A stretch of 64,000 nucleotides of DNA from positions 186,001 through 250,000 of the forward strand of contig NZ_VEEP01000006.1 of assembly GCF_007678455.1 (NCBI RefSeq), given 5' to 3'. The DNA comes from Cytobacillus oceanisediminis 2691 (lineage in GTDB: Bacteria; Bacillota; Bacilli; Bacillales; Cytobacillaceae). The position numbers were made by a program, and so were the translations under genes. Every line of letters starts with the position of its first letter. Position 1 is the stretch's first letter. Below, in pieces: positions 4,193-57,039 of the stretch. The notes under the pieces were generated by a model. That model had not been told where the DNA came from. It saw only the letters and a list, made by a program, of their open reading frames with translations, and did no database searches.

Positions 4193-6367
4193 TTATCTAT
4201 TTTTAAATTCACCCAAAACATTATTCATAATCCTAGTAAGTTTAGCATCCACTGCCAAGCTCCCCCCAAAGGTAATCGAACCAGTAGAAAATACACCCCC
4301 GCCTCCGGGATGATCATAATAAACCATATGTGCCCCTGCACCGATTGTATTAGTTCCTTTTGCGAGTATGATAGCATTCTTTGGCGTATATCTGTCCGCC
4401 TGGTCAGTTTCCCAGCCGGATGCCCCTCCTGTTGAATTGTTTATTTTGTTTAGACCCTGTGTACCGATTAGGTCTCCATTTTTTATGCCTGTGTTAGCAA
4501 AAATCCAGTGGTCTGCATTGCTCACCTTATATGGAGCAGGTACAGAAAACCCTGTTGATCTGTAGCCAACTCCTATTAGTGCTGTTTCTGGCTTTCCAGT
4601 TTGATAAAACAAGCCTCCGCGTTCACCTGTAAATGAGTGTTTGCCGCCATCTTTTCTTACTTCAATCTGATCACTCTTTAGAGCAGCCCTCCAATAGATT
4701 CCGTTTCCTGAAAGATATAATACATTGCCTCCATTTTTCAGATGGTTTTGAAGTCCGTCATACATTCGGGTTGACCAATATTCACTATGGGTGCTAATGA
4801 TAATGGTTTTGAATTTACGGATAAGGGCTGGATTATCGTTAAAGTCCCTTTCGGTAAACATGCTGTATGAATGGTTATTCCTCTCTAGCCAGCCTATTAT
4901 ATGCTTTTCACCGTTAGCGAGGTGTCCTATATTTCCGGATGGATCTGCACCGGGGTTAGGTCTGTCAAAACTGACAAATTCATTATATTTTCTTGCTCCA
5001 TTTACAATACTGTAGCTGTACAAACTCTTCCCGCCCCAGCTGTTGTATGCTTGCCAGGTATTTGTCGATGCCAATACTCCGATATCCGTAAAGGCAGGCG
5101 TTTTTTCCTTTACAATGAAGGTTATAAAAAAGCTATTTGCGCCATCGTATACCTTTGCCGCATACATACCAGTACTCCAACTGGACGGTATCGTGAACTT
5201 ATAAGCAGTATCCCAAAGTGCCCCCTCTTTATAGGCATCATTGAAATAATTTTGAACGGTACCTTTAATATTATTATTTATGCTGGAAACTATTTTTTCC
5301 TCTTTACCATATCTCATAAAATCTATTGAAAAATTCGCCTGAGGAGAATGAATCTTTAATTCTATTGTCTCACCTGGATAATAGCTTAATTTATTCGAGT
5401 ACCCTTCAATTGAATGGGTATTTTTTATAGGATATAAGTTCCCGGCAACCGATTGCTGTACCGACGATGTTCCCCCAAGAACTGTGATAGATTCTGCATT
5501 ACCCGGAAGCAGTATTTTTTTTATGGACTCCGGCACATTTGCCGGCATCGTAAGAAGCATAGGGGCTTCCTGTTTCGCCGCAAGCACGGATCCGGTTAAG
5601 GCATCAGCGAAAGTTAAACCGGTTGAAATAAAGAACCGGTTGGTATTTAAATTTAAATCCTTAATCACGTTTGCAGACACTTCAAATCTGTCTTTTCCGC
5701 TTATCCGTTTTCTGCCTGGCAAGCTGTTAAATACCTCCGGCCCTACACTGCCCTCTCCTCCCACAACAATTACCTTTGTCCGTCCCTCCAATGCCTTTTT
5801 TGTTATATCCGGAAGACGGTCCTTTCCAGTCAAAAGAATCGGATAGCCGCTTCTTGCTGCATAAGGTGCAATCGATAAGGCGTCTGGGAATTTCAAACCA
5901 TTAGCGATAATGGCAGTATCAGAAGGCCCTAATGATCTTGAAATATTGGAGGATACCTCAAATCTGTCTTTCCCGCTTATTCTTGATGCAGCTATCCCCA
6001 TTTTCTCAAGTTCAGTCTTAATGCTATTAGAAATACTTGCTGGCCCTCCAACAAGGATCGCTTGTTTTGGGTTCAATCTACTCAGCTCTTTTTTCGTCTT
6101 ATCTGTCAGAATATCTGCCTGTGTCAATAGAACAGGCGCATTATCCTTATAAGCTAACGGCGTTACCGCAAGGGCATCTGCAAATGCTTTGTAGTTTGTT
6201 ATATATACCTTCTCGCTGCCGCCAGGCCACCCTTTTACGGCAACCTCAATAGCTACATCAAAACGGTCATTTCCACTTAACCTTGAAACGTTACCTTCCG
6301 CCGCTGCGTGCTTTGTACTTCCGAGTACAAAAAACACCAAAATAATAAACAACAGTTTCATCCTCAT
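4193..6367 (-). CDS. Exported CWB2-anchored protein with dimethylformamidase-like C-terminal domain
   Basis: 724 residues. A signal peptide (about 1-23) is followed by three cell-wall-binding type 2 repeats (about 29-315; PF04122), each starting with a (L/I)SG.DRF(D/E)V motif and containing (K/L).(F/A)(A/P)DAL. The C-terminal half (about 430-720) resembles the large domain of N,N-dimethylformamidase beta subunit (PF20254): STNTWQAYNSWGG, SFDRP, HSEYWS, NGGNVLYLSGNGIYWR. This region has a glutamine-amidotransferase-like fold in the family. The start is ATG at 6367 behind GGGGGAAG. It is divergent from a CWB2 subtilase across 188 bp. CWB2 holds proteins to wall polymers non-covalently. The enzymatic activity and substrate are unknown; amide hydrolysis is only suggested by homology. 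Confidence 0.8.
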   Translation of the reverse strand: MRMKLLFIILVFFVLGSTKHAAAEGNVSRLSGNDRFDVAIEVAVKGWPGGSEKVYITNYKAFADALAVTPLAYKDNAPVLLTQADILTDKTKKELSRLNPKQAILVGGPASISNSIKTELEKMGIAASRISGKDRFEVSSNISRSLGPSDTAIIANGLKFPDALSIAPYAARSGYPILLTGKDRLPDITKKALEGRTKVIVVGGEGSVGPEVFNSLPGRKRISGKDRFEVSANVIKDLNLNTNRFFISTGLTFADALTGSVLAAKQEAPMLLTMPANVPESIKKILLPGNAESITVLGGTSSVQQSVAGNLYPIKNTHSIEGYSNKLSYYPGETIELKIHSPQANFSIDFMRYGKEEKIVSSINNNIKGTVQNYFNDAYKEGALWDTAYKFTIPSSWSTGMYAAKVYDGANSFFITFIVKEKTPAFTDIGVLASTNTWQAYNSWGGKSLYSYSIVNGARKYNEFVSFDRPNPGADPSGNIGHLANGEKHIIGWLERNNHSYSMFTERDFNDNPALIRKFKTIIISTHSEYWSTRMYDGLQNHLKNGGNVLYLSGNGIYWRAALKSDQIEVRKDGGKHSFTGERGGLFYQTGKPETALIGVGYRSTGFSVPAPYKVSNADHWIFANTGIKNGDLIGTQGLNKINNSTGGASGWETDQADRYTPKNAIILAKGTNTIGAGAHMVYYDHPGGGGVFSTGSITFGGSLAVDAKLTRIMNNVLGEFKNR

Positions 6368-6555: not shown

Positions 6556-8526
6556 ATGAAGATTAAGCTAATATCACTCACGTTTTTGACAACTTTTACT
6601 CTTTGTCTCCTGGTCACTCCCCAACAGGCGTTAGGTAAGGAAACAACTGAGAAAATTGTTCTTTTCAGGGATGCAGTTAACCGGCATTTAATTGAGTCAT
6701 ACGAGGGAGTCATTATCGAGGAGTATAAGAATATTCCCGCTGTAAAAATAAATATTAATGAAGCAAAAATATTATCACTACAGTCAAACTCACAAATTTT
6801 ATTAATTGAAGATGAGCAGAGAGTCGAAAAAAGCGGCCAAATGGTTGAGTGGGGAGTAAAAGCCATTCAAACCCAAAAAGCCTGGAACAGTCATTACACA
6901 GGCAAGAATGTAAAGGTTGCAATAATGGACAGCGGTATTTCTCCACATGAAGATTTAAAAATAGCAGGCGGCAAATCGTTTGTGTCCTATACTGCTTCTT
7001 ATAAAGATGATTCTGGACATGGAACCCACGTTGCCGGGATAGTAGGGGCACAGAACAACGGATTAGGCATCGTAGGAGTTGCGCCAGACGCCAGGTTATA
7101 TGCACTGAAGGTTTTAGACAGAAATGGGCAAGGCTATCTGTCCGATATGATCGCTGCAATCGATTGGGCAATTACTAATAATATGGATGTTTTAAATTTA
7201 AGCCTTGGCTCCATGGAACCTTCTTATGTACTGGAAAGAGCTCTGAATAAAGCTTATAAAAGCGGAATGTTGATTGTCGCCGCGGGAGGAAACGAAGGAA
7301 CGAGTACTGGCAATGGAGATAATGTTGCGTACCCTGCTAAATACCCTGCTGTAATTGCCGTGTCTGCAGTTGATCAAAATAAAGTTAGAGGGAGCTTCTC
7401 CGCAACGGGAAATGCTATTGAGTTTTCTGCACCGGGAGTGGGAATTGTAAGTACACATTTGGATAACAAATATGTCAGCTATTCCGGAACCTCCATGGCT
7501 ACCGCATTTGTAACAGGAAGCCTTGCATTATTGAAAGAAATGTACCCTGATTTATCTGCCTCTGCGCTGCGTGAAAAGCTGGGAAGGAATGCTCTGGATC
7601 TAGGGGCTTCTGGAAAAGATTCCTGGTATGGATTGGGGTTAGTCCAAACACCACTCACTCCGGAGAGGCTATCAGGTAAAGACCGCTTCGAGGTTTCCGC
7701 TAACATTTCCCAGAAAGGCTGGGATTCAGCTGATACTGTATTTATCAGCAATTATAATGCTTTCGCTGATGCTTTATCAGCAGCACCGTTAGCATACAAA
7801 TACAATTCACCTATCCTTTTGACTCAAGCTGGCAGCCTAAATCCAGTAACTAAACAGGAGATCACAAGATTAAAGGCTAAGAACATTGTGTTGATAGGCG
7901 GGAGTGGAAGTCTTAATGACTCGATTGCGAAAGAATTGAGGGGTATGGGAAAAAACGTAAGAAGGATTGGCGGACAAAACAGATTTGAAGTTTCAAAGAA
8001 CATTGCATTGGAATTAGGAACTTATCAGACCGCCATAGTAGCTAACGGCTTGAATTATCCTGATGCGTTGGCCATCGCACCATTTGCTGCAAAAAATGGA
8101 TTTCCTATATTGCTCACTCGTCCAGAAGCTGCTTCTAGGGAAACTTTAGAGGTAATCCAAAAGAAGAATGTCCAAAATACAATTATTGTGGGCGGAGAGG
8201 CAAGTGTGAGCAGAAATGTCTCCTATAAGATGCCGAAACCAGTTCGTATTGGCGGGAAAGACCGCTACGAGGTCGCATTGAATATATTTAATAAGTATTT
8301 CGCCAATACTGGGAAACTCTACTTTGCCACAGGAACAACTTTTGCAGATGCATTAACCGGATCCGTATTAATCACAAAGGAAAATGCCACCATCCTGCTT
8401 ACTGGAAAGGATACACTGCCGGGTTCAGTTTCAGACACTTTGGCAAAACGCAAGATCCAAACTTACATTATTTTAGGTGGAACAGGTTCAGTTGGCAGTA
8501 ACGTCCTATCTTCGCTTAGTAAATAA
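6556..8526 (+). CDS. Secreted subtilisin-family protease with C-terminal CWB2 wall anchor
   Basis: 656 residues. Signal peptide about 1-27, a short I9-like propeptide (about 30-90), then the S8 catalytic domain: Asp125 (MDSGIS), His155 (DSGHGTHVAG), oxyanion Asn in AAGGNEG, and Ser313 (SGTSMATAF). Three CWB2 repeats fill about 372-656, each with a GKDRFEV/GGQNRFEV/GGKDRYEV-like start. The mature protease is therefore predicted to be surface-held. It resembles the Vpr/Epr-like minor extracellular proteases. The order (enzyme first, anchor last) is the reverse of its divergent neighbour. AAAGGAG lies eight bases before the ATG. A terminator follows at 8533. Confidence 0.93.
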   Translation: MKIKLISLTFLTTFTLCLLVTPQQALGKETTEKIVLFRDAVNRHLIESYEGVIIEEYKNIPAVKININEAKILSLQSNSQILLIEDEQRVEKSGQMVEWGVKAIQTQKAWNSHYTGKNVKVAIMDSGISPHEDLKIAGGKSFVSYTASYKDDSGHGTHVAGIVGAQNNGLGIVGVAPDARLYALKVLDRNGQGYLSDMIAAIDWAITNNMDVLNLSLGSMEPSYVLERALNKAYKSGMLIVAAGGNEGTSTGNGDNVAYPAKYPAVIAVSAVDQNKVRGSFSATGNAIEFSAPGVGIVSTHLDNKYVSYSGTSMATAFVTGSLALLKEMYPDLSASALREKLGRNALDLGASGKDSWYGLGLVQTPLTPERLSGKDRFEVSANISQKGWDSADTVFISNYNAFADALSAAPLAYKYNSPILLTQAGSLNPVTKQEITRLKAKNIVLIGGSGSLNDSIAKELRGMGKNVRRIGGQNRFEVSKNIALELGTYQTAIVANGLNYPDALAIAPFAAKNGFPILLTRPEAASRETLEVIQKKNVQNTIIVGGEASVSRNVSYKMPKPVRIGGKDRYEVALNIFNKYFANTGKLYFATGTTFADALTGSVLITKENATILLTGKDTLPGSVSDTLAKRKIQTYIILGGTGSVGSNVLSSLSK

Positions 8527-8714: not shown

Positions 8715-11700
8715 ATGAAAAAAACTAGAATTCTATCATTAACTTTAGTTTTATTATTAGTGATGGGAAGTATACTTCCATATCCAGCTTCTGCTATATC
8801 TTCTGCAAAAGGAAATAAAGTTTCACAGATCAGCAAAACCAAATTTAAAGAAAAAGTAAAGAAAAGTCAGGTACAAGCTGACAAGAAGAACGGAAGTCCT
8901 GTTTCACTGAAAAAGAAAGCAGAAAATCCTTTAGAAACAAAATTAAAGAACAAAGCGAATAATAAAGATGGCCATAAAGAAAAAACTGCTACAAATGAAT
9001 TAATTATCAAATACAAAGCAAAAACTGATTCTAGTAAAATACAAACCCTTCACAAAAAGTTTTCTTTACATTCATCCAAGACACTGAAATCAGTAAATGC
9101 TGAAGTTGTAAAAATTCCAAAGGGCAAATCAGCATCAACTGTAATCAAAGAGTTAAAAAAGGATCCCACAATAGAATCTGTCCAGCCAAACTATAAGTAC
9201 TATGCAAGCGAGATCAATGATGCACCAAATTATTATGATCAGCTTTGGGGTATTCATAACACTGGCCAGGCAATTAAAAATATCCCAGGTATTGCAGATA
9301 TTGATGTAGATGCGAAAGAAGCAAGGACCAGTTATGCTGGTAAGCTATCACAGGTAGTGGTTGGGGTAATTGACACAGGAGTAGATATCAGCCACCCAGA
9401 TTTGAAAGATATTATATGGACCAATCCTGGTGAAGCTGGAGCTATGGCATCCGACGGAATTGATAATGACAAGAATGGCTATGTGGACGATGTCCATGGA
9501 TGGGACTTCGTCAATAATGACAATACTGTGTACGATCCTCTTGATGGAGACGAACATGGAACTCATGTATCAGGTACCATTGCAGCCGTTTTAGAAGGAA
9601 CAGGAAACAAAGGGGTGGTTGGAGTTGCCCCGAATGTTAAGATACTGCCTATTAAATTCTTAGGTCCCTGGGGAGGCACGACCTCAGATGCCATTTTAGC
9701 AATTGAATATGCAAAAAGCATGGGTATTAAAATCACAAACAATAGCTGGGGCGGCGGAGAATATGATCCACTATTAGAGGAGGCAATCAATAACTCCAAC
9801 AGCCTGTTTGTAGCAGCTGCCGGAAATGATGGAATGAATAATGATATGTACCAGTCTTTTCCATCAAGCTTTGAAAGTGCAAATATACTATCCGTTGCGG
9901 CTTTAGACAACATGGGTAATCTTGCAGACTTTTCTAATTACGGATTCAACTCCGTTGATGTGGCAGCACCCGGCGTTAACATTCTGAGCACAGTCCCTAA
10001 ATACCCTGACGTTGAAATAGCTTCTGCTCTTGGGGTTGAAAATTTAGGCGCCTCTGCACAAATAAATAACACAGAACTGAATTTCAAGGCTGTATTCGAC
10101 GGGGTCGGGTATGAAAAAATAAATGAGAACCAAAGATCAGATGCATTTGATAAAGCACTCAGCTTCCTTGATATTCCTAAAGATCAAACGAAAAAAATCC
10201 TGCTCGTCCAGGATGATGAACATGATATTGCAAGTGAAATTCCAGTTCCTGAATTACAGGAATATTTCAAGGACTATCTTTCAACTTATGAAAACCTTCT
10301 TGAAGGTTATAACTATGAAGTACAGTCATTGGATTTTGATTCTTCATTAATGGATAGCGGGGTAGATTTGTCTTTATATGATGCTGTGGTCTGGTTCACA
10401 GGACACGGGCTTGGAATAGGTGCCGATGAAGGAACAACACTTACCTCTGCTGATATTGATACGCTATCAAACTACCTATCTAACGGCGGCCGTCTTCTGC
10501 TGACAGGACAGGATGCCATTTATGGACAGGAATCCTCTCCTTTCGTACAGGAGTTGTTAAGCTTGAATGTTTATCCTGACATGGGACCAAACCTGAATGT
10601 ATCAGGGCTTCCTGGCGGCATTTACGAAGGCCTTTCATATGAAGTAGACCGTTTTGAATCTCCATATCCTTTTGCTGATTTTATCCAGTCAACCGGACCT
10701 TCAGCAACAGTGAATCTAAAGTATGTCTCTGCATATAAACAAGCATACGATTATTATAATGGTACCTCTATGGCTACACCGCATGTTACTGGTGTTGCTG
10801 CCTTATTTGCAGGCTTATATCCTAAAATGTCACCAGAATTAACAAAGCTTTATTTAAGCCATAAAGGGAAAGAGCTGCCAAATCTAAAAGGTCTTATTAA
10901 TAGCGGGAAATTAGCCAAAGCAAGCAAGCTCAATTTCTTTGATGACAACAATTTCCCTGGCACACCTTTAGTTAAGAACATTCTAAATGGCAGTGTCAAT
11001 GTTACAACAGATAAAGATGATGTCTATGCAGTCGCCCTAAAAGAAGGCGAAGTATTAAATATCTCCTTAACAGGACAGGCAGGAACCGACTTTGACTTAT
11101 ATTTATATGACAGCTCTGCAGCAGATATATCAAATGCGGGCGGAATGGTTGGTTATTCTGAGAACGAAAACACATCGAAAGAATCCATTAAATTTACAGC
11201 ACCAGCTACAGATGTTTATTTCATAGATGTCTATGCATTTAAAAACTCAGGTTCATATAAGCTTTCTGTTGGGAATTTTGCAGGCTCCTATGAAGATAAT
11301 TCAGATGCTTTGTCATACTGGGGCAATTGGGACTATATAGAAGACCCTGCTTTATCAAAAGGAACAGCAAGCGTTCTTAATTCGCAAGGTGAAGTCAACT
11401 TTTCTTTTGTGGGGTACAGTTTTGAATGGCAAGGCTTCAAAAACTATAATCAGGGAGTTGCAGATGTCTATATCGATGGAGTAAAACAGAGTTCACCATC
11501 GTTGTATTCATCAAGTTTCAAAGCAAAGGAAAGAATCTATAGAAAAGATTATTCATCCTATGGCGAGCATAAGGTGAAGATTGTCTGGACAGGAAAAACA
11601 GATGCTGCAGCCCGCAAGAGTGCTGCCGGAATCAATATTGACAGATTCATAGTGAGAAGTAATCCTGTTTCTCTGAATGTCTATTATGACACTGCGAAGA

Positions 11701-12662
11701 AACATCCGGTCGTTTCCTGGAATTCTGTTTCATGGGCAGCTTCCTATGATGTTTACCGTAAGGAAAGTACGCAAACTGAATATAAAAAGCTGAATACTAC
11801 TCCAGTTTCAGCTGTCAGCTTCAATGATACAACTGCATTGCCGGGCAAAACGTATGCATACAGCATTGTGATTAATACAAAAGATACTCAGGAAACACCG
11901 ATGTCCACGTCCTTCACTTTTGTTTACGACGACGATACAAAGGGACATATTAATTTATCATCAAGTACCGTAAAAGGATCTTTAAATTCAGCTTCAAAGG
12001 ACCTCAATGACGTTTGGTCCAAGCAATTGGAACAGGGAAAAACATATCAATTCGTCCTTACTGGTCCATCATCAGCTGACTTTAATCTTAAATTCTTTAA
12101 AACCGGAACGACGACGATTTATGGTGCAACTCCATTAAAAGAGTCTGCCTTATCTGGTTCAACCGAGAAAGTGACTTTTACACCGCAAACTACAGGACTA
12201 TATTATATAGTTCCAACCGCAAAGAGCGGAGCTGGGCAATATAGCCTCACAGCATCGGTGCAGACAACAAAACGTATGGAAAATACAGATTCAAATCTTA
12301 AATACACAGGAACATGGAGTAAGATAAGCTATTCCAGCGCTTCTGGAGGCAGCATTGGCCGGGCGAATTCAACATCAGCCAGTCTGGCATACTCTTTCAG
12401 TGGAACATCACTTAAGGTTTACGCTTTAAAGGATACAAACATGGGACTCGCCGATATATACATCGATGGTATCAAAGTCAAGCAGATCGATTTGTATGCA
12501 TCAAGCCGCAAATATAAAGTGAACGTCTATGAATATAAACCATCTGACAATAATAACCACACAATCAAGATTGTCCCAACCGGGAAAAAGAATAACGCTT
12601 CAGCAGGCACATATGTAAATATTGACGCTTTAGATTTAACAAAGTTTACGCCATTGAATTAA
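8715..12662 (+). CDS. Giant secreted subtilase with insertion in the catalytic domain and C-terminal PPC/beta-sandwich modules
   Basis: 1315 residues. Signal peptide about 1-27; Lys-rich linker about 35-95; propeptide about 96-170 (NELIIKYKAKTD ... VQPNYKYY). S8 catalytic residues: Asp220 (VIDTGVD), His281 (DEHGTHVSG), Asn371 (AAAGNDG), Ser685 (NGTSMATPHVTG). Asn-to-Ser spacing is 314 residues, against 66 in subtilisin BPN', so about 250 residues are inserted between ILSTVP and the Ser motif. The insert contains ILLVQDDEHD, WFTGHG, LSNGGRLLLTGQD and looks like a GATase1-like alpha/beta domain. After the protease come two PPC-like domains (about 760-860 and 1077-1185), two similar jelly-roll-like units ending in INIDRFIV / VNIDALDL, and an Fn3-like unit (about 985-1070). 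An AGGGGAAAAG site precedes the ATG. Role: extracellular protein degradation; exact target unknown. Confidence 0.92.
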   Translation: MKKTRILSLTLVLLLVMGSILPYPASAISSAKGNKVSQISKTKFKEKVKKSQVQADKKNGSPVSLKKKAENPLETKLKNKANNKDGHKEKTATNELIIKYKAKTDSSKIQTLHKKFSLHSSKTLKSVNAEVVKIPKGKSASTVIKELKKDPTIESVQPNYKYYASEINDAPNYYDQLWGIHNTGQAIKNIPGIADIDVDAKEARTSYAGKLSQVVVGVIDTGVDISHPDLKDIIWTNPGEAGAMASDGIDNDKNGYVDDVHGWDFVNNDNTVYDPLDGDEHGTHVSGTIAAVLEGTGNKGVVGVAPNVKILPIKFLGPWGGTTSDAILAIEYAKSMGIKITNNSWGGGEYDPLLEEAINNSNSLFVAAAGNDGMNNDMYQSFPSSFESANILSVAALDNMGNLADFSNYGFNSVDVAAPGVNILSTVPKYPDVEIASALGVENLGASAQINNTELNFKAVFDGVGYEKINENQRSDAFDKALSFLDIPKDQTKKILLVQDDEHDIASEIPVPELQEYFKDYLSTYENLLEGYNYEVQSLDFDSSLMDSGVDLSLYDAVVWFTGHGLGIGADEGTTLTSADIDTLSNYLSNGGRLLLTGQDAIYGQESSPFVQELLSLNVYPDMGPNLNVSGLPGGIYEGLSYEVDRFESPYPFADFIQSTGPSATVNLKYVSAYKQAYDYYNGTSMATPHVTGVAALFAGLYPKMSPELTKLYLSHKGKELPNLKGLINSGKLAKASKLNFFDDNNFPGTPLVKNILNGSVNVTTDKDDVYAVALKEGEVLNISLTGQAGTDFDLYLYDSSAADISNAGGMVGYSENENTSKESIKFTAPATDVYFIDVYAFKNSGSYKLSVGNFAGSYEDNSDALSYWGNWDYIEDPALSKGTASVLNSQGEVNFSFVGYSFEWQGFKNYNQGVADVYIDGVKQSSPSLYSSSFKAKERIYRKDYSSYGEHKVKIVWTGKTDAAARKSAAGINIDRFIVRSNPVSLNVYYDTAKKHPVVSWNSVSWAASYDVYRKESTQTEYKKLNTTPVSAVSFNDTTALPGKTYAYSIVINTKDTQETPMSTSFTFVYDDDTKGHINLSSSTVKGSLNSASKDLNDVWSKQLEQGKTYQFVLTGPSSADFNLKFFKTGTTTIYGATPLKESALSGSTEKVTFTPQTTGLYYIVPTAKSGAGQYSLTASVQTTKRMENTDSNLKYTGTWSKISYSSASGGSIGRANSTSASLAYSFSGTSLKVYALKDTNMGLADIYIDGIKVKQIDLYASSRKYKVNVYEYKPSDNNNHTIKIVPTGKKNNASAGTYVNIDALDLTKFTPLN

Positions 12663-19078: not shown

Positions 19079-21538
19079 TTATTTTAATTCCAGAATGACA
19101 TACTGGGCACTAACCCAGCCCGTTCTCCCATCAGCAAGCTTGACATTGTACCAAGACTTCGTACCATCCATAATAACATTGCCAGCAGAATCTACAGAAA
19201 GGGGAATAAAATCATTCAGCTTCAATGCTGCTATTGGAGCCTGAGCAGTGGAAGCAATCGGCCGTACATTTAACGAAGACGCTGTCACTCTGCCCAGATT
19301 CTTAACTGTGATGAACTCTTTATAGCGATCGAACTTAATATCATTTGTCCAATAATCTCTATTATCGACTGAGAGTTTTACCCAATAATCGTTATGCTTC
19401 TCAAGTATGGTGAACAATTGGTCTTTTTTCAAAGTTTGAGATGCAACGGTACTTCCCTTTTGATTTACAAGCTTTATATCCTGTTTGGCCACTGCCGAAA
19501 TACCTGATGGAAAACCATCCTTCCCTTCAGGTCTGGATGGATATGAAAACAAGTTCGAATTGGCAGCGATATTATATTCAGCATTATTATAAGGGTAAAT
19601 CTTCTGCATATGGGCTGCTATCTTTTGCCCCCATTTGACATCGCTGGCATAATAGAAATTCATCCCTGCGCTATTCGAATCCAATCTGCTATTGTCTGAA
19701 ACTGTTCTGGTACTATAGCCCAAATAGGCACCTTTATACTTCCAGCTTGCCGGATTAAGATAGGTAGACACCAATTCCTGTGCAATATAATCAATATTTT
19801 GTTCAATTGAAGCAAAGCGGACCGCACCTATATAAGGAGCAGCATCAAATGCTCCAAATCCAAACAGATTATATTTCCCTAAGGAAATATTCGAAGTGCC
19901 AAATGCACTCTCATGGACGGCGTGGGCTGCCAGATATAAAGAATTGATGCCATATTTGTTCCCCGCATCTATGAAAGCTTGTCCTTTCCCTTTTAATACG
20001 CTGATCCTGCCTGAACTCAAATTGTTATCGATATACTGGTTAATCTGTGCAGCCGTGACCCTGGAGGGCTTTCGCAGATCAATAAATTGATAACCTTCCC
20101 GATGAAGCGGATCTCCAGTCACAACCTCCTTTATGTATCCTCCCGAAACGTATCCGGTTCTTCCGTTAAATACAGTCTTGAACCATCCATTGGATACTGT
20201 ATGAGTAGGATTGATCAGCGACCCATAAGGCAGTACTGCCAGAATTTCAGAATCAGTCGCAGCTGTTTTTCTCAGGTTTAAATTAGCTGCAGTTACATAG
20301 GTTTTTCCAGAAATAGCTGTTTCTGACACCTCCAGCTGCTGTTCTGGCTCTTGTGATGGGCTTGCTGTCACTGGCACCACTGGATCCTGGATCTGAGGTG
20401 CAGGAGATATCGGTTCTTGTTCCACCGGCGCCTGCTCGACTGGCACCTGAGGAACAGGGACCTGCTGGACTGGCGCAGGCTTGGTAGCCGGCGGCGTATA
20501 GCTTGTCATTTCTCCACCAAAAACATACCCGGATTTTCCCGCAAAACTGAAACTATACCAGTTTCCAACACTATACTTGGAACTCACTATGGTATTTTTC
20601 GGGATTTTCACCAGTTTCGTATATATATTTCCATAAGATGAATACAAATAAGTATCCTTGTTGGTGGTAAAGTTCATTTGGCTGAAGGATTTTCCACTTT
20701 GAGCAGTCACTTCAGTCAATTGCACATAAACCGGTTTCCCATTATATACGACTTTTAACCATGTTTCCCCCGCACTATTAATAACCTTTTGAGTTGCCTG
20801 AAACCCATTATCCTTGCTTACTTTTAAAATAGCATTCTTCTTTTTGTCCGGGGATGCGTAAAGTTGAGCTTCTTTTTTCGTCAGATAAGTACCGTTTATA
20901 TTGGAGTATTGGTAATACTCCTTAAGATAACCCGCACTCACCCAGCCTGTAGCTGAAGTGATTTTTTTGTTCACTGTGTAGGTATAGGAAACCTTGACCC
21001 ATTCTCCGTTTCTTTCAGAAGATGAAACAACCGTGCCTTTTGGAATCGTTTTAATGATACCGTTTTTGGTACTTGGTCCTGAGCGTAAATTCAAGTTAGC
21101 AGTGGTTTGATACTTGATTACAGGAGTATTCGCTTTATTGGCACTGACATTTTGTTTTTTATCCGGTTGTGTGCTTTTAGGCGAAGCTGTGATTGGTTTA
21201 GCTGCTTCAGCATAAACCCTCATAATATAAGAACCTGCTACCCACCCAGTCCGTGAAACCTTTTTTCCTTTTTCAGCATAAGAATAGGTTACCTTGTACC
21301 AATCCCCAGAGCGCGATACAGCAGTAATCTGCTTGCCTTTTGGAATGGTCATCATGATTTTGTACTTTGTTCCCGCCCCTGTCCTCATGTTTAAATTAGC
21401 AGTAGTTTGATAAACCGAATTGCTAAGAATAACCGGTGATGCTGCTTCCCCGTAATTAATAAAAGGTGCACCAGGCAGTGACGTACTGCCGGCTAAAAGA
21501 GCTGCAGACATAAATAATACTCTGCCATATTGCTTCAT
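19079..21538 (-). CDS. Secreted multi-SH3 endo-beta-N-acetylglucosaminidase (autolysin)
   Basis: 819 residues from ATG at 21538 (GGAAGTG upstream, then MKQYGRVLFMSAALLAG, a signal peptide to about residue 33). Bacterial SH3 domains with ANLNMRTG/ANLNLRSG/ANLNLRKT starts lie at about 45-110, 140-210 and 410-480, with a further SH3-like unit between, a Pro/Glu/Val-rich linker at about 355-400 (repeated PVPQVPVEQAP), a glucosaminidase domain (PF01832, GH73) at about 495-665 with the catalytic Glu543 in AVHESAFGTS, and two more SH3-like units to the end. It should cleave the GlcNAc-MurNAc glycan strand, like LytG/LytD. SH3 repeats bind peptidoglycan. Monocistronic. Confidence 0.93.
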   Translation of the reverse strand: MKQYGRVLFMSAALLAGSTSLPGAPFINYGEAASPVILSNSVYQTTANLNMRTGAGTKYKIMMTIPKGKQITAVSRSGDWYKVTYSYAEKGKKVSRTGWVAGSYIMRVYAEAAKPITASPKSTQPDKKQNVSANKANTPVIKYQTTANLNLRSGPSTKNGIIKTIPKGTVVSSSERNGEWVKVSYTYTVNKKITSATGWVSAGYLKEYYQYSNINGTYLTKKEAQLYASPDKKKNAILKVSKDNGFQATQKVINSAGETWLKVVYNGKPVYVQLTEVTAQSGKSFSQMNFTTNKDTYLYSSYGNIYTKLVKIPKNTIVSSKYSVGNWYSFSFAGKSGYVFGGEMTSYTPPATKPAPVQQVPVPQVPVEQAPVEQEPISPAPQIQDPVVPVTASPSQEPEQQLEVSETAISGKTYVTAANLNLRKTAATDSEILAVLPYGSLINPTHTVSNGWFKTVFNGRTGYVSGGYIKEVVTGDPLHREGYQFIDLRKPSRVTAAQINQYIDNNLSSGRISVLKGKGQAFIDAGNKYGINSLYLAAHAVHESAFGTSNISLGKYNLFGFGAFDAAPYIGAVRFASIEQNIDYIAQELVSTYLNPASWKYKGAYLGYSTRTVSDNSRLDSNSAGMNFYYASDVKWGQKIAAHMQKIYPYNNAEYNIAANSNLFSYPSRPEGKDGFPSGISAVAKQDIKLVNQKGSTVASQTLKKDQLFTILEKHNDYWVKLSVDNRDYWTNDIKFDRYKEFITVKNLGRVTASSLNVRPIASTAQAPIAALKLNDFIPLSVDSAGNVIMDGTKSWYNVKLADGRTGWVSAQYVILELK

Positions 21539-21703
21539 ATATTCACTTCCACTCATTTATTTTCTTCAGACCAGAGTGACTATCAGTAAAAAGTGTTACT
21601 AATTTATTTATCGGTAAAAAGAAGGCTTTTTGTAGACTTCCAGTTTTATAGGTTTTAAAAAAATTTCTTCAGCCCTAAAGAACAGCTATGACTGCATAAA
21701 AAT

Positions 21704-50101: not shown

Positions 50102-52045
50102 TCAATCTAATTCACCTTTCTCTTCAAGTGCAATAACAGTGAGCACATACATTGCATGAGACCAGGTTAGTGGCATAACCCACGCAGGTTCTCCGGTTTT
50201 TTTATCAATTTGTTCAGGCAGAAGTCCTAGATGGTTTGCCTGAGAAACTGACCATTTTAAGTATTCACGGGACTTTTCATATTTACCGATTCGCACATAA
50301 TATTGGGCAAGCCAAAGAGTTGTTAAGATCCATGGGTTGCCTCCGATATATACGTCTCCCGGAAAACGTTCAATCCCGCCAACGATTGGCGAGGTCAATA
50401 TACGCTCGATCGTTTCGGCTGTTTTCATCATTCTCTGGTCGTTTTCTGGCAGCATATTAAAAGGGACATTCAAGCCAAGCAGACTTACATCTACTACAGG
50501 ATCTTCCCATACGCGGTAGGTCGGATATCCTTTTTTGTTATACTCTACCAATGTTGCCTTTCTCTCGGATTTTGCCTCTTCGTAATATTTTTGATCCACT
50601 GCCAGTTTTAATCCCCTTAAGTAGGAATCTGAAGATTCATTCCAGCACTTTTCTTCGATGGTCGCCTTGATTAAATGGGCAGTGCGCTCCCATTTATCAG
50701 CCAGATCGCCTCGGTCAAATTTTCTTGCCAGTTCTGCAGAGCCTGCTAAGCCTCCATAAACGGCCGCTGCAGAATAGAGATGTTCTCCATCCCGCTTCTC
50801 CCAAAGGTCCTTGCTGGGCATGGGGAGATTCGTTTCAGGGTCGATAAAGCTATTGATAAACTCAGCACCTTTTTGTACTGCCGGCCAAATATCCTGTAAA
50901 AACTGCTCATCTCCAGACTCAAGATAGTGCTGGTGGATTCCCCAAAGGATTGACCCGCTCTCATCAATTTGCAAACCCCACGTAGGTGCAAGCTTACCGT
51001 CAATATAATGACGCTGCTCCCATGATCCGTCTTCACTTTGCAGTTCCGTTGTGGCGTTGTAGAATTTTGAAACTGTACCATGGTAACCAGCCTTGTCCAC
51101 CGCATTTGCGATATAAGCAGCGTCACGTCCCCAGCAATATGCATACCCACCAGAGTAATCATAATCTTCATCTACTTCCGGACCAGCAATAAAGCCGCCC
51201 TTCTCTTCATCATTTAGAAGTTTAAAAGCCAATAAAGACCTGATGTAGACTTCCCTGGTCCTGGTATCTTTTATTTCAAACTGCTTCGCTTGCTTAAGGT
51301 AATTCTCCCAATAATCAGCAGTCTTCTTGTATAACTCATCTGCCCCTGTATGTTTTGCTTCTCGCAGCTCACATATTGCATCTTCCACTGTATGACCTGC
51401 TGCAATGAAAATAGGCAACTCCACTTCTTCCCCCGGTTCAAGCATGCCTAAGTTCCATGATACGGAGCCATCCGTCTTGTTCATGATTTCTTTACCGTTC
51501 ATTTTATTGGTTTTTGAGGCATCCAGGGCCAGGCCACTTTGATATTGAGCTGCTTCGTATGTGCTGCCAACCGCAAATGCATACTCGCGGTGATAATGCA
51601 CTAGGCAATCTTCTTCTTGACTGAAGAGCACAGTATTGAAACGAACACGATCATCCACAGTAAAATCTGAATAGATGACAAATGACATCTCGCGGCTAAC
51701 GTCAGAGATATTCTTAATCCTATAGTTTCGGACAAAAACATCTTTTCCAGGTACCACATAATCCGTCTGCCGAATGGCAAACCCGCTTTCTTCCTGTACC
51801 GCAGCTGTGGTTAAAATGTTTGTTTCAGCTTCATATTTCTGTTCGTGTTTCCAGCCATCCTCGTGCATAAACATCGTTACATTTTCTTCACCATCCACAT
51901 GAACACCAGTATAAAACCTGTTCATATGCTGGGAAAAGTCGATATGCGGCCAAAAAAGCCGCTGCAGCTGCCCATCCTTTGTCAATGAAACGAGCATTTT
52001 TGAATTCCCAATAATACCATCTATCAGATACGGTTTTTTTCTCAT
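50102..52045 (-). CDS. Glycoside hydrolase family 15 (glucoamylase/glucodextranase-like), cytoplasmic
   Basis: 647 residues from ATG at 52045 (CAGGAGTG six bases upstream). No signal peptide. An N-terminal beta-sandwich (about 1-260; YLIDGIIGNSKMLVSLTKDG) precedes the (alpha/alpha)6 barrel with GGYAYCWGRDAAYIANAVDKAG, EDGSWEQRHYIDG and RFPGDVYIGGNPWILTTLWLAQYY, sequences expected around the two catalytic Glu. GH15 releases glucose by inversion from alpha-1,4 or alpha-1,6 glucans, and bacterial intracellular members act on maltooligo- or isomaltooligosaccharides. It is the last gene of the binding protein-permease operon, so imported oligosaccharides are its likely substrate. Confidence 0.93.
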   Translation of the reverse strand: MRKKPYLIDGIIGNSKMLVSLTKDGQLQRLFWPHIDFSQHMNRFYTGVHVDGEENVTMFMHEDGWKHEQKYEAETNILTTAAVQEESGFAIRQTDYVVPGKDVFVRNYRIKNISDVSREMSFVIYSDFTVDDRVRFNTVLFSQEEDCLVHYHREYAFAVGSTYEAAQYQSGLALDASKTNKMNGKEIMNKTDGSVSWNLGMLEPGEEVELPIFIAAGHTVEDAICELREAKHTGADELYKKTADYWENYLKQAKQFEIKDTRTREVYIRSLLAFKLLNDEEKGGFIAGPEVDEDYDYSGGYAYCWGRDAAYIANAVDKAGYHGTVSKFYNATTELQSEDGSWEQRHYIDGKLAPTWGLQIDESGSILWGIHQHYLESGDEQFLQDIWPAVQKGAEFINSFIDPETNLPMPSKDLWEKRDGEHLYSAAAVYGGLAGSAELARKFDRGDLADKWERTAHLIKATIEEKCWNESSDSYLRGLKLAVDQKYYEEAKSERKATLVEYNKKGYPTYRVWEDPVVDVSLLGLNVPFNMLPENDQRMMKTAETIERILTSPIVGGIERFPGDVYIGGNPWILTTLWLAQYYVRIGKYEKSREYLKWSVSQANHLGLLPEQIDKKTGEPAWVMPLTWSHAMYVLTVIALEEKGELD

Positions 52046-52074
52046 GTTAGTCACTCCTGGCTAAAGTTGTTTAG

Positions 52075-52896
52075 TTACCCTTTGACAGAACCCGATGTTA
52101 ACCCTGAAACAATTCTCCGCTGGAATAACAAAACAAGGATGACAATCGGTATGGTCACGATGACTGTCGCAGCAGTTATATCTCCCCACGGTACTGTATA
52201 ATCACTCTGATATAAAGAAATCCCTACAGGAATGGTCCTTGATGACTCCTGTGAATTTATTGTCAGGGCGAATAAGTATTCATTCCAGGCCGTTATAAAA
52301 ACAAGGATTGCAGTTGTGAAAACCCCTGGTGCGGCCAAGGGAAAAATCACCTTGCGGAAAGTTTGAAATGGCGTTGCCCCATCCATTTTTGCAGATTCCT
52401 CCAGCTCGTGAGGAATCTTTTGAAAAAATGTTGACAGCAGCCAAATAGCTAGCGGCAAACTGAACGTAATATACGGGATAACAAGCCCCATATAAGTGTT
52501 TCTTAAATGAAAATCTGTCACAAAATTATAGATTGGTGAAATTATCGCAATATGAGGGAACATTGATGACGCAAGCACAATACCCAGGATCAATCCTTTA
52601 AACTTAATCGGCAGCCGCGTTAAGGCATAGGCAGCAAAGGAAGCGAATACTACCGCTATCAGGGTAGTTAAAGTAGAAACTATGAAACTATTTTTCATAT
52701 ACGTCAACAAAGGCCTCGTTGTTAAGGCAGATAGATAGGATTCAATTGTTGGGTTCTCGGAAAACCAGGCGAATGATGAGAAAATTTCTCCCGGCGGTTT
52801 AATTGAAGTCAGAAAAACCCAGATAAACGGAAACATAACAAGGAAGACAAATACTGCTAAAAATAGATAGAATGATGCTCCTGCTCGCTTGTTCAT
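52075..52896 (-). CDS. Carbohydrate ABC permease, MalG type
   Basis: 273 residues with six membrane helices and the EAA loop ELEESAKMDGATPFQTFRKVIFPLAAPG. MalG/AmyC subfamily, ending WIRRIVSG-like (FQRRIVSGLTSGSVKG). It pairs with the MalF-type permease 16 bp upstream. No ATPase gene is present in this module. Confidence 0.92.
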   Translation of the reverse strand: MNKRAGASFYLFLAVFVFLVMFPFIWVFLTSIKPPGEIFSSFAWFSENPTIESYLSALTTRPLLTYMKNSFIVSTLTTLIAVVFASFAAYALTRLPIKFKGLILGIVLASSMFPHIAIISPIYNFVTDFHLRNTYMGLVIPYITFSLPLAIWLLSTFFQKIPHELEESAKMDGATPFQTFRKVIFPLAAPGVFTTAILVFITAWNEYLFALTINSQESSRTIPVGISLYQSDYTVPWGDITAATVIVTIPIVILVLLFQRRIVSGLTSGSVKG

Positions 52897-52912
52897 TTCT
52901 CCATCCTCCTCA

Positions 52913-54238
52913 TTATTTCATTTTCCCTTCGAATAGGTCGGATCCAATAAATTTGATATAAATAACACTAATTAACGCTACGGATAGGAAAACGATGACG
53001 GATAAGACCGAACCAGCTCCAAAATTCTGTTGTGAAAACAGAGTTTTATAAGCATAAACCGTAATGGCTTCTGTGGAGTTTGCAGGCCCGCCGCCAGTCA
53101 ATACATAGATCAAATCGAACACCCTGAATGCATCCAGTGTCCTGAATAGTAATGCAACCAAAATGGATGATTTTAATAATGGCAGGGTAATTTTAAAGAA
53201 CTGCTGAATCTTGTTTGCCCCATCCACTTCTGCCGCTTCATATAATGAGGACGGAATTGTTTGCAGACCTGCCAATAGGAGCAATGACATGTACGGGGTG
53301 GTCTTCCATACATCGGTGAAGATAATTGAGAACATAGCACCTGTTGAAGTCGTCAATAAGTCCCCTGCACTGGATATGAGGCCGAATTGTTCGAAGTAAT
53401 GAGCAATAATGCCTGATTGTCCGTCGTAAAGATATTTCCACATCATTGCCGAAACCGCAGTCGGAATCGCCCATGGTATAAGTACAGAGGCCCTGATGAT
53501 TCCTCTGCCGAAGAAAGCACGGTTAATAAGCAGAGCGATCATCAACCCGAGAACCAGCTCAAAGAATACTGAAATCACAGTGAAAACGCCTGTATTCGCA
53601 AGTGATTTCCACATTCTTTTTTCCTGGAAGTAATGACTGTAATTTGCAAGGCCGATAAAATTCGATTCAAGTATTGCTTCATCAGTTGCTTTCATTTGTT
53701 CTTTAATATCAGCCAGACTGCCTTCTTGCTCTTCTTCAAGCTTCAATTGCCGGATGGAATTTATAGAATCCCGCAGAGTTGCTTTATAATCCTCTGCAAG
53801 GTCACTCTCAATTTTTGCGTATTTCAAATCATCATCTACTACTGGTTTAAAGGAAGCAATCAAGTCATTAACCTGATCATATTTCCCTTTCATTTCTGGA
53901 TTTTCTAATAGTTGATCATGATAACCTTCAATACGATCTTTGATTTCACTAATCGTTTTTTTGGATTCAGAGTCGTTTGAACTTGCTTCTAATTCTTCCA
54001 AGGAGCTGGATAAGTAATAATAATTGTTTGCATATCTTTCTAAGTCAATATGTTCCGATACCATCTTCTGCGACTTTGCAGGATCATTCAACCTGTAATC
54101 AAATAAGCTATTCCAAAATGAAAGACTGATTGGCCACAATATAATTCCAATAATCAATATGAGTGAAGGCAGAACCATCATATAGCCTAGCTGCTTTTCA
54201 CTTAAGCTGAAACGTTCTTTGTTTGGTTTCCCAGCCAC
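52913..54238 (-). CDS. Carbohydrate ABC permease, MalF type, with a coiled-coil insertion
   Basis: 441 residues from a GTG at 54238 (AAAGGGTGG five bases upstream; 18 further in-frame residues unsupported). Helix 1 (about 15-35, YMMVLPSLILIIGIILWPISL) is followed by about 150 polar residues, strongly helical and Glu/Lys-rich (LSSSLEELEASSNDSESKK, ISEIKDRIEGYHDQLLENPE, LKLEEEQEGSLADIKEQMK), then five helices and the EAA loop SSLYEAAEVDGANKIQQFFKITLP. Typical MalF/AmyD permeases have about 290-320 residues, so this is an extracytoplasmic insertion, larger than in the second module's permease (287 residues). It could contact the binding protein. The reading frame is uninterrupted. Confidence 0.9.
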   Translation of the reverse strand: MAGKPNKERFSLSEKQLGYMMVLPSLILIIGIILWPISLSFWNSLFDYRLNDPAKSQKMVSEHIDLERYANNYYYLSSSLEELEASSNDSESKKTISEIKDRIEGYHDQLLENPEMKGKYDQVNDLIASFKPVVDDDLKYAKIESDLAEDYKATLRDSINSIRQLKLEEEQEGSLADIKEQMKATDEAILESNFIGLANYSHYFQEKRMWKSLANTGVFTVISVFFELVLGLMIALLINRAFFGRGIIRASVLIPWAIPTAVSAMMWKYLYDGQSGIIAHYFEQFGLISSAGDLLTTSTGAMFSIIFTDVWKTTPYMSLLLLAGLQTIPSSLYEAAEVDGANKIQQFFKITLPLLKSSILVALLFRTLDAFRVFDLIYVLTGGGPANSTEAITVYAYKTLFSQQNFGAGSVLSVIVFLSVALISVIYIKFIGSDLFEGKMK

Positions 54239-54273
54239 AACAACCACCCTTTCGGTAAAATGAAAGAGAGGCA

Positions 54274-54289
54274 GGTGTGCTTTCACACC
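54274..54289 (-). promoter_or_regulatory. Intercistronic hairpin between binding protein and permease genes
   Basis: GGTGTG-CTTT-CACACC, without a T-run. In such operons hairpins after the binding-protein gene commonly stabilise its mRNA. The same arrangement occurs in the second module at 62160. Confidence 0.5.
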
Positions 54290-54310
54290 CACCCCATTTT
54301 GAATAAAAAA

Positions 54311-55612
54311 TTATTTCAGAGCTTTCTCCATTTTCTCCTGCATGTTCTTAACAGCTTGCTCAGGAGTGATTTCTTTTGTCAGTGCCTTGGATACTTCAAT
54401 TTGCATAATATCTGAGACTTCTGGATAATTCGGTGTAATCGGCCTTGGAACTGCACTATGCAATACCTTGATAAACTCTTCATTGCCGAACAATGGAGTA
54501 GCACTCTTTACTTCCTCTTTTTCATATAAATCTTTTAAAGTCGGTGCTCTTCCGCCTTCTACAGCAGAAATAGTTTGTCCATCTGCTCCTGTCATGAACT
54601 TCACGAATTCCCATGCCGCTTCTGGTTCATCTGTATAACGGTTAATCATCGTCATATAACCGCCCAGAGTAGCAGCTGAACCCGCATCACCTGATGGAAG
54701 AACAGCAAAACCTACCTTGTCCAATACCTTTGACCGTTCCTTATCAGCTGCTGATTTAGACATGTAAGGCCAGTTACGGGCAAGAACAGTTTGTCCTTCG
54801 ATAAAGGCCGTTTCAGTTTCTGTTTCTGAGAAGGTCAAAATATTATTTGGCATAAAATCAGCATTCACGATTTCAACCATTTTGGTAAGACCTTTAACAG
54901 ATTCAGGGCTATCAATGACCACTTTATTATTTTCATCGATTACCTGGCCGCCGTAAGACTCAATGAACTCAATTGCGTTTACTACCAATCCTTCATATTG
55001 GTTAGCCTGTAGTGCATAGCCAAACTTAGTGCCTTCCTTGCCATTGCCTTCTTTAGCAGCCGCTATTAATTCATCCCAGGTTTTTGGAGCTTCTTTTACA
55101 ATATCAGTACGGTAATACAAAAGACCTGCATCCATATACTTCGGCATTGCCCATTGTTTACCGCTGAATTTCCCTGCCTGCACAGTTCCTGGGAAGTAGT
55201 CTTCCATCTTGATTCCATCTTTTTCAATCAGACGGTCAAGCTCCAATGCATAGTTAGCCTGGGCGAATTCAGCCGGCCAAACAACGTCTGCATCAAAAAC
55301 ATCGATTTCCGTACTCTTGCTGCTGAAAGCCGTCACATATTGATCATGCTGCTGTCCGCTGCTATTTGGCATCTCTTGATATTCGACATCTATATTTGGG
55401 TGGGCTTTCTCGAACGCTTCAATGAGCTTTTCTGTGCTTCCTGTAGTATCTGCTCCACGTGCATAAGTGATTTTTACAACCTCTTCAGATGATGGCTTTT
55501 TTTCCTTGTCCGATGAAGCTTTTTCATTGGAATCAGTAGATGAACACGCTGCAAGGCTAAGAGCTAATGTGGCTGAAGATACAAGACCGAAGATTTTTTT
55601 CTTCTTTGACAT
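54311..55612 (-). CDS. Carbohydrate ABC solute-binding lipoprotein
   Basis: 433 residues from ATG at 55612, 13 bases after GGAGG; the upstream in-frame stretch lacks a site. Lipoprotein signal with SLAACSSTD (Cys about 22). Type-2 (MalE-like) fold: VVKITYARGADTTGSTEKLIEAFEKAHPNIDVEYQEMP, VFDADVVWPAEFAQ, YLDAGLLYYRTDIVKEAPKTWDELI-like core, and VEGGRAPTLKDLY. It belongs to the family-1 sugar binding proteins and should deliver oligosaccharides to the MalF/MalG-type permeases encoded next. Three LacI-type operators precede the gene. Confidence 0.92.
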   Translation of the reverse strand: MSKKKKIFGLVSSATLALSLAACSSTDSNEKASSDKEKKPSSEEVVKITYARGADTTGSTEKLIEAFEKAHPNIDVEYQEMPNSSGQQHDQYVTAFSSKSTEIDVFDADVVWPAEFAQANYALELDRLIEKDGIKMEDYFPGTVQAGKFSGKQWAMPKYMDAGLLYYRTDIVKEAPKTWDELIAAAKEGNGKEGTKFGYALQANQYEGLVVNAIEFIESYGGQVIDENNKVVIDSPESVKGLTKMVEIVNADFMPNNILTFSETETETAFIEGQTVLARNWPYMSKSAADKERSKVLDKVGFAVLPSGDAGSAATLGGYMTMINRYTDEPEAAWEFVKFMTGADGQTISAVEGGRAPTLKDLYEKEEVKSATPLFGNEEFIKVLHSAVPRPITPNYPEVSDIMQIEVSKALTKEITPEQAVKNMQEKMEKALK

Positions 55613-55645
55613 ATAAATGGAGCCTCCTAAAATTCTTTTTATTTT

Positions 55646-55660
55646 GTAATCGATTTCAAT
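55646..55660. promoter_or_regulatory. LacI-type operator copy 1 (diverged)
   Basis: GTAATCGATTTCAAT, a variant of TTGAAATCGATTTCAA with one half diverged, 34-48 bp upstream of the binding-protein start. Confidence 0.6.
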
Positions 55661-55703
55661 TAAATGTTTAATGAAGAGATGCTTATTGAGTGATGAAGCA
55701 CTC

Positions 55704-55721
55704 TTTGAAATCGATTTCAAA
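55704..55721. promoter_or_regulatory. LacI-type operator copy 2
   Basis: TTTGAAATCGATTTCAAA, an 18-bp perfect palindrome, 92 bp upstream of the binding-protein start. Confidence 0.75.
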
Positions 55722-55771
55722 CAGCTTTAAAAAAATTACACTTTAATCATTTTCGTTTTATCCGTAAAAAC

Positions 55772-55787
55772 TTGAAATCGATTTCAA
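55772..55787. promoter_or_regulatory. LacI-type operator copy 3
   Basis: TTGAAATCGATTTCAA, a perfect 16-bp palindrome, between the regulator stop and the binding-protein gene. Spacing to copy 2 is 68 bp between starts, compatible with DNA looping. Confidence 0.75.
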
Positions 55788-55833
55788 TACACTGCTTTTA
55801 AAACCTTTCTTCACTTTTTAGTAAAAGAAAGGT

Positions 55834-56841
55834 TCATCTTTTTTCCGTTGCAGAATTTCGTTCCACCAGTTGAAGGGGAAATACATAAGATTCATACTCC
55901 AACGGTGCATCGTCGTTATTGATCTTTTCAATCATAACCTTTACAGCCTGTTCTCCCATCTCACCTATCGGCTGATGCACTGTGGTTATAGCAGGGTCAA
56001 TCAATTCGGATATTGGCTGGTCATCAAAACCAACTACAGATAAATCCTCAGGAACCCTGACGCCAAAAAGCTTTGCTTCTGCGATTATGCCAGCTGCTGC
56101 TTCATCCCCACCAACAAACACGGCTGTGATTTTTTTCGGTAATTGGTGGAAAGCTTTTTTACCGTCCTCTACCGTGTAGACACCTTTAAAAAGTGCATGT
56201 TCATCAAAGTGCTTGCCGAACTCCTCATGTGCCTTAATGAGACCTTCCATTCTGCCTTTCCCAACACTTGTCTTTAAGTCACCTATACAATAAGCAATAT
56301 GCTCGTGCCCTAAATCCAGCAAGTGCTTTACAGCGATATACCCGCCAATTACCTGGTCAGCATAAATGGTCGGCACTTTCGCCTCCCTGTGAAATTCGTT
56401 GACTAGAATGAGAGGGCCAAAATTCTGATACGGTTCGATTTCACTCCAGTCATTTTCAATGGATGCAAGAATTATCCCATCAACTTTCTTTGCCTTAAGC
56501 ATATCCAAATACTGCAACTCTCTCGTTTTTGAATACCTCGTCTGGCATACAATCAGCTGATAGCCACTATTCATTGCCGCAATCTCCATCGCTTCGATTA
56601 ACTTACTGAAGAATGGGTTTGTAATCCTATTGATTAAGACAGCAATCGTTTCAGTCTTCCTATTTCGCAATCTGCGAGCTGAGGAATTAGGATAGTATCC
56701 AAGCTGTTCCATCGCATTTTTTACTGCACGCTTTTTATCTTCTGAGATATGAGGATAATTATTGATTACCCTAGAGACAGTAGCTCTCGATAGACCGGCA
56801 AGCTCAGCCACTTCCTTAATGGTAATTCGTTGTTCGATCAC
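55834..56841 (-). CDS. LacI-family repressor of the first alpha-glucan module
   Basis: 335 residues from a GTG at 56841: GGGGAGG lies eleven bases upstream, and the longer frame would begin inside the promoter's -10, so it is rejected. HTH at residues 6-26 (TIKEVAELAGLSRATVSRVI), hinge NSSARRLRNRKT, then a periplasmic-binding-like ligand domain (KVDGIILAS, VVGFDDQPISELIDPAITTV, the LacI-family C-terminal core). The promoter carries an overlapping copy of the same operator that precedes the binding-protein gene three times, so it probably represses itself and the operon. MalR-like; effector likely maltose or an isomaltooligosaccharide (inferred). Confidence 0.92.
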   Translation of the reverse strand: MIEQRITIKEVAELAGLSRATVSRVINNYPHISEDKKRAVKNAMEQLGYYPNSSARRLRNRKTETIAVLINRITNPFFSKLIEAMEIAAMNSGYQLIVCQTRYSKTRELQYLDMLKAKKVDGIILASIENDWSEIEPYQNFGPLILVNEFHREAKVPTIYADQVIGGYIAVKHLLDLGHEHIAYCIGDLKTSVGKGRMEGLIKAHEEFGKHFDEHALFKGVYTVEDGKKAFHQLPKKITAVFVGGDEAAAGIIAEAKLFGVRVPEDLSVVGFDDQPISELIDPAITTVHQPIGEMGEQAVKVMIEKINNDDAPLEYESYVFPLQLVERNSATEKR

Positions 56842-56885
56842 CCCTGCTATCGCCTCCCCTAAAATGAAATCGCCTTTATGGGTTA

Positions 56886-56914: not shown

Positions 56915-56982
56915 TCATTTTTTAGACTATTTATTCCTTTAGAGCTTTTCAATTCAATTTCTACCTGGTTTCACTCACAAAA

Positions 56983-57005: not shown

Positions 57006-57039
57006 AAAGCATTATAAATTTAATTCTTGAAGGCGGGTT

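Follow-up and report, generated by a model that had tools for sequence, protein, structure and literature searches.

The window, by which we mean the whole 64,000-nucleotide stretch of Cytobacillus oceanisediminis 2691 DNA that was analysed, carries on its forward strand an open frame (8715-12662) whose translation is a secreted-type subtilase of 1315 residues with an inserted domain; the protein begins with what we take to be a signal peptide. The gene and the parts of the protein are laid out as follows.

8715..12662, forward strand: whole gene, an open frame with S8, PPC and prodomain matches
8952..9191, forward strand: prodomain (residues 80-159), Fervidolysin_NPro-like, PF22148 (Pfam E 2.2e-12)
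9351..9995, forward strand: first piece of the subtilase domain (residues 213-427; Pfam PF00082 profile positions 3-221), with the invariant residues D220 (9372-9374), H284 (9564-9566) and N371 (9825-9827)
9996..10193, forward strand: N-terminal unit of the insert (residues 428-493), a helix, beta hairpin and helix, probably corresponding to the unit at the C-terminal end of free copies (from profile comparison, matches of this part after the core in Bacteroidota, and secondary structure)
10194..10745, forward strand: core of the insert (residues 494-677), probably a GATase1-like alpha/beta domain, with ILLVQDDE at its start (from structural matches that begin at that strand and a profile match to free copies)
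10746..10919, forward strand: second piece of the subtilase domain (about residues 678-735; second PF00082 match), with the invariant S685 (10767-10769)
11019..11237, forward strand: PPC domain (residues 769-841), the better-scoring of two stretches (Pfam PF04151, E 2.1e-16)

Directly upstream (6556-8526, forward strand) lies a second subtilase which lacks the insert and ends in three cell wall binding repeats (CWB2). A reverse-strand gene at 4193-6367 encodes an unusual combination of three CWB2 repeats and a DMFA2_C domain (dimethylformamidase beta-like); another at 19079-21556 encodes a glucosaminidase, four stretches of which match SH3_3 and relatives of which lie near the protease in locus L003; and glycan genes at 50102-58674, also on the reverse strand, include members of the GH15 and alpha-amylase families. 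Besides the protease, the window shares only scattered paralogues with loci L001-L003 in a neighbourhood comparison.

By its motifs and predicted fold the protein is a member of subtilase family S8 (PF00082), and is predicted to be proteolytically active. The PF00082 match (E 3e-52) stops at profile position 221, which is residue 427, and a second S8 match begins again at profile position 217 (nucleotides 10698-10865 of the window). The residues D220, H284, N371, and S685 are invariant in alignments of 4 of 4 full-length proteins and 10 of 10 catalytic domains, and the Asp and His motifs accompany the Ser motif in 37 of the 39 distinct insert-bearing proteins, those of the other two falling outside the motif window used. 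Some insert-bearing subtilases depart from the usual motifs: HGTA or HGTG replaces HGTH in L016, L020, L021, and L024, and GTSIA replaces GTSMA in the first three of these, L024 stopping at a contig end ahead of the Ser motif.

The insert itself is 250 residues long (428-677, nucleotides 9996-10745) and lies between ILSTVP and YDYYNGTSMA. A domain of about this size between the Asn and Ser of a subtilase was what the earlier note had proposed, and a discrete domain is indeed found there, directly ahead of the catalytic serine; the Asn371-Ser685 spacing of 314 residues that the note gave is correct, as are its coordinates, and the motifs it quoted (ILSTVP, ILLVQDDEHD, VVWFTGHG, and NGGRLLLTGQD) all occur in the translation. 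The corresponding spacing in subtilisin BPN' is 66. Counted on the translation, the gap from the end of APG to GTS is 262 residues in the window protein; its median is 16 (range 15-123) in 56 subtilase entries that were not de-duplicated, and in a further 64 entries the gap exceeds 150 residues. If every match that extends from profile position ≤16 to ≥221 is taken as the inserted form, then all 36 distinct cores of this kind (loci L016-L063 and L112-L143) lie at a single site, between APG (or like) and GTS[MIL]. Two of the 24 other distinct matches are pieces of the contig-broken G437 protein; the remainder begin at profile position 49 or later and lie ~160-550 residues behind GTSM, where the locus frame includes GTSM.

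Subtilases with a PA domain, among them the paralogue L166 from the window's own genome and C5a peptidase, likewise carry a domain between Asn and Ser, but the PA domain of L166 precedes the APG strand (PA 457-539, APG 584, GTSM 615) whereas the window insert follows APG. No PF02225 match was found in the window protein or in any of 26 inserts. A PA domain at this position, which would have spoken against the earlier proposal, is thus absent; nor is the disordered loop that was its other named counter-case predicted, mean pLDDT in ten-residue blocks of the insert ranging from 67 to 97 in the second of our two structural models.

Model 1 was built from 4 sequences, and has a folded insert (blocks 46-92) and an unfolded protease part; model 2 was built from 33 sequences, of which 29 lack the insert, and has a folded protease (mean pLDDT 84.6, pTM 0.82). 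Model 2 was searched with VIA as a whole, and subtilases filled the list: it superimposes on deseasin MCP-01 with Z 46.1 (1.8 A over 312 residues, 47% identity), the catalytic domains being alike but the 329-residue deseasin chain having no counterpart of the insert in the alignment. The structural matches of the insert accordingly come from model 1. The best are STM3548 (Z 8.2, 3.7 A, 156 aligned), a GH42 enzyme domain (8.1), STM1381 (8.1), and a GH42 mutant (7.9), followed by peptidase E, cyanophycinase, gamma-glutamyl peptidase, IFT52, and a ThuA-like protein; STM3548, the GH42 domain, STM1381, peptidase E, and similar entries presumably share the GATase1-like fold. In 32 of the 50 VIA matches the alignment starts at model residues 311-317, just before ILLVQDDE, the canonical first strand, leaving residues 428-489 in front of it. 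Folds unrelated to these also appear (IMPa metallopeptidase, thymidine kinase, glutamate receptor, DOT1L, and a PLP enzyme), and VIA warns that a Z under 8 may reflect a common arrangement; Foldseek, run with model 1, returned RecA, lumazine synthase, and other matches of large rmsd (best E 5.3e-4) and did not show a GATase1-like fold. Taken in the wide sense, a GATase1-like alpha/beta fold for the insert core has moderate support from the VIA matches.

The earlier note had likened the segment to ThuA/GATase1-type folds. The GATase1-like half of this comparison holds to the moderate degree that a VIA Z of about 8 allows; profiles do not support membership of ThuA (PF06283), which 8 of 26 inserts match at best E 0.021, below cut-off, and which hhalign aligns at E 0.012. 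(Open frames of 1939-2067 residues at L155-L158 and L160, in the same genus, also match part of ThuA below cut-off.) Peptidase E (Peptidase S51, PF03575) was rejected as well, hhalign against 29 relatives giving no signal though structural matches exist. No Pfam model scores over cut-off for the insert in the window protein or in the 26 inserts, no NCBIfam family is matched by more than 1 of the 26 (best E 0.0073), and the window insert itself has no match among PDB sequences, where the best match to a profile of 10 inserts was a designed TIM barrel (E 0.026) that we take as chance. The note had also suggested looking for a Cys-His-Glu or other catalytic set: no column of the 26 aligned inserts has Cys or His in at least 30% of them, so the insert is probably not an enzyme, and membership of the class I glutamine amidotransferases, with their catalytic Cys and His, was rejected. 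The insert thus resembles STM3548, the GH42 domain, ThuA-like proteins, and peptidase E in core fold, but has neither an over-cut-off profile match nor a conserved Cys or His.

Relatives of the insert also exist as free copies, which are C-terminal in other Firmicutes subtilases and common in Bacteroidota proteins. The free copies finish with a hairpin, an FPFE-like motif, and a helix (for example YRVVFFAFPFEAIP), and the inserts open with a similar unit (for example NYKAIFDGIGYEKI) and then a helix. Sequence comparison gives good support to the reading that the insert is a circular permutation, with the hairpin-helix unit before the core rather than after it as in free copies. Specifically, i) when profiles of 26 inserts and 10 free copies are compared, the N-terminal part of the insert pairs with the C-terminal part of the free domain at E 3.7e-6 (probability 87; E-values are for one comparison), against E 0.42 and 0.27 for the wrong pairings, and a smaller profile set gives a similar picture (E 2.8e-5, against 0.6 and 0.18); ii) the unswapped insert scores 162 over 140 columns against the free profile (columns 15-52 also align to 164-205, at E 5.4e-4), and the insert with its parts swapped scores 183.5 over 194 columns; iii) 37 of 198 Bacteroidota genomes match the 26-insert profile, nearly always from profile position ~50 onward; and iv) of 18 distinct Bacteroidota proteins with a core match, 16 show the N-terminal part of the insert profile downstream of the core and the other 2 do not show it at all, duplicates having been dropped from the 18, although some are close kin (L212-L214 72-88%, L226/L227 95%, and L209/L222 71% identical), and the count being 13 of 15 without L218-L220, which were picked because an N-terminal match was already listed. 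Among the 16, eight match at iE <0.01 (best 4.5e-6 and 6.9e-6), five at 0.01-0.13, and three at 1.1-1.8; in none of the 18 does the N-terminal part stand directly before the only core.

Several single cases deserve mention. L209, which has two cores, shows a weak N-terminal match (iE 1.4) between them, 24 residues from the first and 106 from the second; a further Bacteroidota protein, L229, has the N-terminal part downstream of the core (iE 1.9e-4); L221 has an N-terminal match without a core; and one Bacteroidota match gave the impression of running from the N-terminal part into the core (profile 18-192), but there too the N-terminal part matches downstream (iE 1.9e-4), the upstream stretch seemingly being a chance extension. 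The free form in several Bacteroidota proteins (L208-L229) is followed by a tail like NYPNPFNP, which we take to be typical of secreted proteins of that phylum. In some Firmicutes subtilases (L036, L039, and L041) the protease domain is followed by two free copies, a possible source for a permuted copy.

If the insert were instead unpermuted, its N-terminal strand and helix would be an added unit, natural in peptidase E. Peptidase E structures do align from the N-terminal strand of the insert (3l4e, Z 7.3, model residues 278-493; 6a4t, Z 6.9), and permutation tests on single sequences are weak: 18 of 26 inserts scored higher after rotation, mostly by little, and the profile of the free C-terminal part matched 11 of the 26 upstream and 5 at another place, with no match in the other 10. 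Against this stand the profile pairing given under i), the silence of the 29 peptidase E relatives, and the occurrence of the N-terminal part after the core in free proteins, and we regard the unpermuted reading as improbable. Under the permutation, E467 of the insert and the Glu of FPFE are counterparts. The residues most conserved among the 26 inserts are D500 (26), W560 (26), D501 (25), Y674 (25), D580 (24), D655 (23), E606 (22), and E467 (21), and the 10 free copies retain a DDD triplet (10), the W (10), and the FPFE Glu (9). Our guess is that D500, D501, and E467 might form a ligand or metal pocket. The free domain, found in Firmicutes subtilases with PKD domains and in Bacteroidota, thus has the core sequence, DDD, W, and Glu in common with the insert, but it is in canonical order and lies C-terminal to or outside the protease domain, whereas the window insert is permuted.

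Searched with the window insert itself, 9 of 101 relative genomes match. A profile built from 10 inserts matched 20 of 193 family genomes, so that the insert is patchy and absent from 173 of the 193; in a search of 398 phylum genomes this profile matched 28. The 26-insert profile matched 4 of 398 class genomes and, at E 1e-5, 35 of 398 phylum genomes, the two phylum searches apparently having been run on an identical draw of genomes. Of those 35, 15 carry the inserted form (broken by contig ends in G437) and 20 have other matches only, mainly the free form; tentatively grouped with the 20 is G158, which has a match to profile positions 12-160 in the phylum search and no match at the level of frames. 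The inserted form is spread over 14 different family codes in the relative, class, and phylum searches together, and no internal stop lies within the matches listed for relative and family genomes. This recurrence in relative and family genomes, free of stops in the listed matches, argues that the insert is neither a product of chance nor a local oddity, and the insert-bearing architecture is conserved across many Firmicutes subtilases. What the earlier note saw, a discrete GATase1-like domain ahead of the serine, therefore survives; what it missed is the permutation and this conservation.

A tree of 63 catalytic domains, chosen to include 26 with insert, 7 with a free tail, 13 from the window's own genome, and 17 others, is compatible with a single origin of the insert: the 26 insert-bearing rows require 3 changes, and a single clade has p-AU 0.573, with lnL 3.07 higher when they are held together. 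Mobile carriage was considered and rejected, since tblastn found no match to the window insert in plasmids or phages; plasmids likewise gave no tblastn match to two distant inserts, none of 48 subtilase loci in a viral collection had an insert match, and pattern scans of that collection turned up nothing related to the insert or to its free form.

Subtilases that contain inserted domains are already known: those with PA domains, and CspB, a Clostridium spore germination subtilase in which a folded domain likewise interrupts the subtilase domain (PMC3567191). The CspB insertion is a jellyroll of ~130 residues, and the window insert differs in size and fold, being ~250 residues, alpha/beta in both models, and permuted. 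Assignment to a CspB type was rejected because the insert, alpha/beta in both models, is no jellyroll. In the open-licence literature, outside which most subscription journals fall, we found no description of a subtilase with a GATase1-like domain, of any such insert, or of circular permutation together with a subtilisin-like insertion; one passage of a 2026 survey of domain insertions treats permutation and insertion as distinct (PMC13114784). The domain, the site, and the permutation in subtilases thus seem to be undescribed.

What might the insert do? The predicted subtilase fold and the triad are intact, and the loop before the catalytic serine holds what is well supported as a whole permuted GATase1-like domain, whose permuted order lets it leave and rejoin the protease at one loop. 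The insert adjoins the residue equivalent to BPN' Tyr217, which in BPN' lines the primed side of the cleft, and would therefore lie near that side; of 39 distinct insert-bearing proteins, 25 have an aromatic residue at the equivalent position, four before Ser, and 14 do not. We infer that the insert may be a non-catalytic module, most likely an exosite or gate beside the primed side, and give this reading an even chance. Such a module would have no activity of its own, and would bind part of the substrate or restrict access to the cleft, as other subtilase exosites do; C5a peptidase, for one, is steered by an exosite on its Fn2 domain (PMC9720508). Gating of substrate access, to which the earlier note had pointed, would fit the position of the insert in the sequence.

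The main rival, by analogy with the CspB jellyroll, is that the insert braces the protease, perhaps with its prodomain, and so aids folding and autoprocessing. Deletion of the jellyroll reduced stability and processing of CspB (PMC3567191), and the strongly conserved residues of the insert for the most part belong to the core. Yet only one of the 17 S8 matches in the window genome coincides with an insert match, and those of its subtilases in the tree set that lack the insert have ordinary or PA-type spacing; the subtilase fold therefore does not need the insert, and we consider bracing possible, though clearly less probable than an exosite or gate. It is unlikely that the insert does nothing but bind, anchoring the protease to polymer, cell wall, or ligand with catalysis unaffected: the free domain does occur beside PKD domains in subtilases and in other kinds of Bacteroidota protein, a context common for binding modules, but a tail that only binds would not have to be placed ahead of the serine, and C-terminal PPC domains are already present. 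A second enzyme, an amidase or glutaminase of the class I amidotransferase type, has fold resemblance in its favour and nothing else, and the lack of any Cys or His column makes it very improbable.

Returning to the exosite or gate, we wish to raise one further, speculative version of it, that the protein is a natural protease switch in which a sensor domain, rotated such that its two ends come together, occupies the loop ahead of the nucleophile serine, and in which a ligand bound in the putative acidic pocket changes the primed side or how it is reached. We think this doubtful; if true, the switch would be evolution's version of the domain-insertion switches built by engineers.

Whatever its function, the insert marks a domain family that is unnamed in Pfam and NCBIfam, and brings circular permutation and domain insertion together in one lineage. 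Since unpermuted free relatives are still at hand, the order of these events can be worked out, and since the module immediately precedes the nucleophile in one of the best-studied enzyme folds, the effect of the insert on specificity should be simple to measure.
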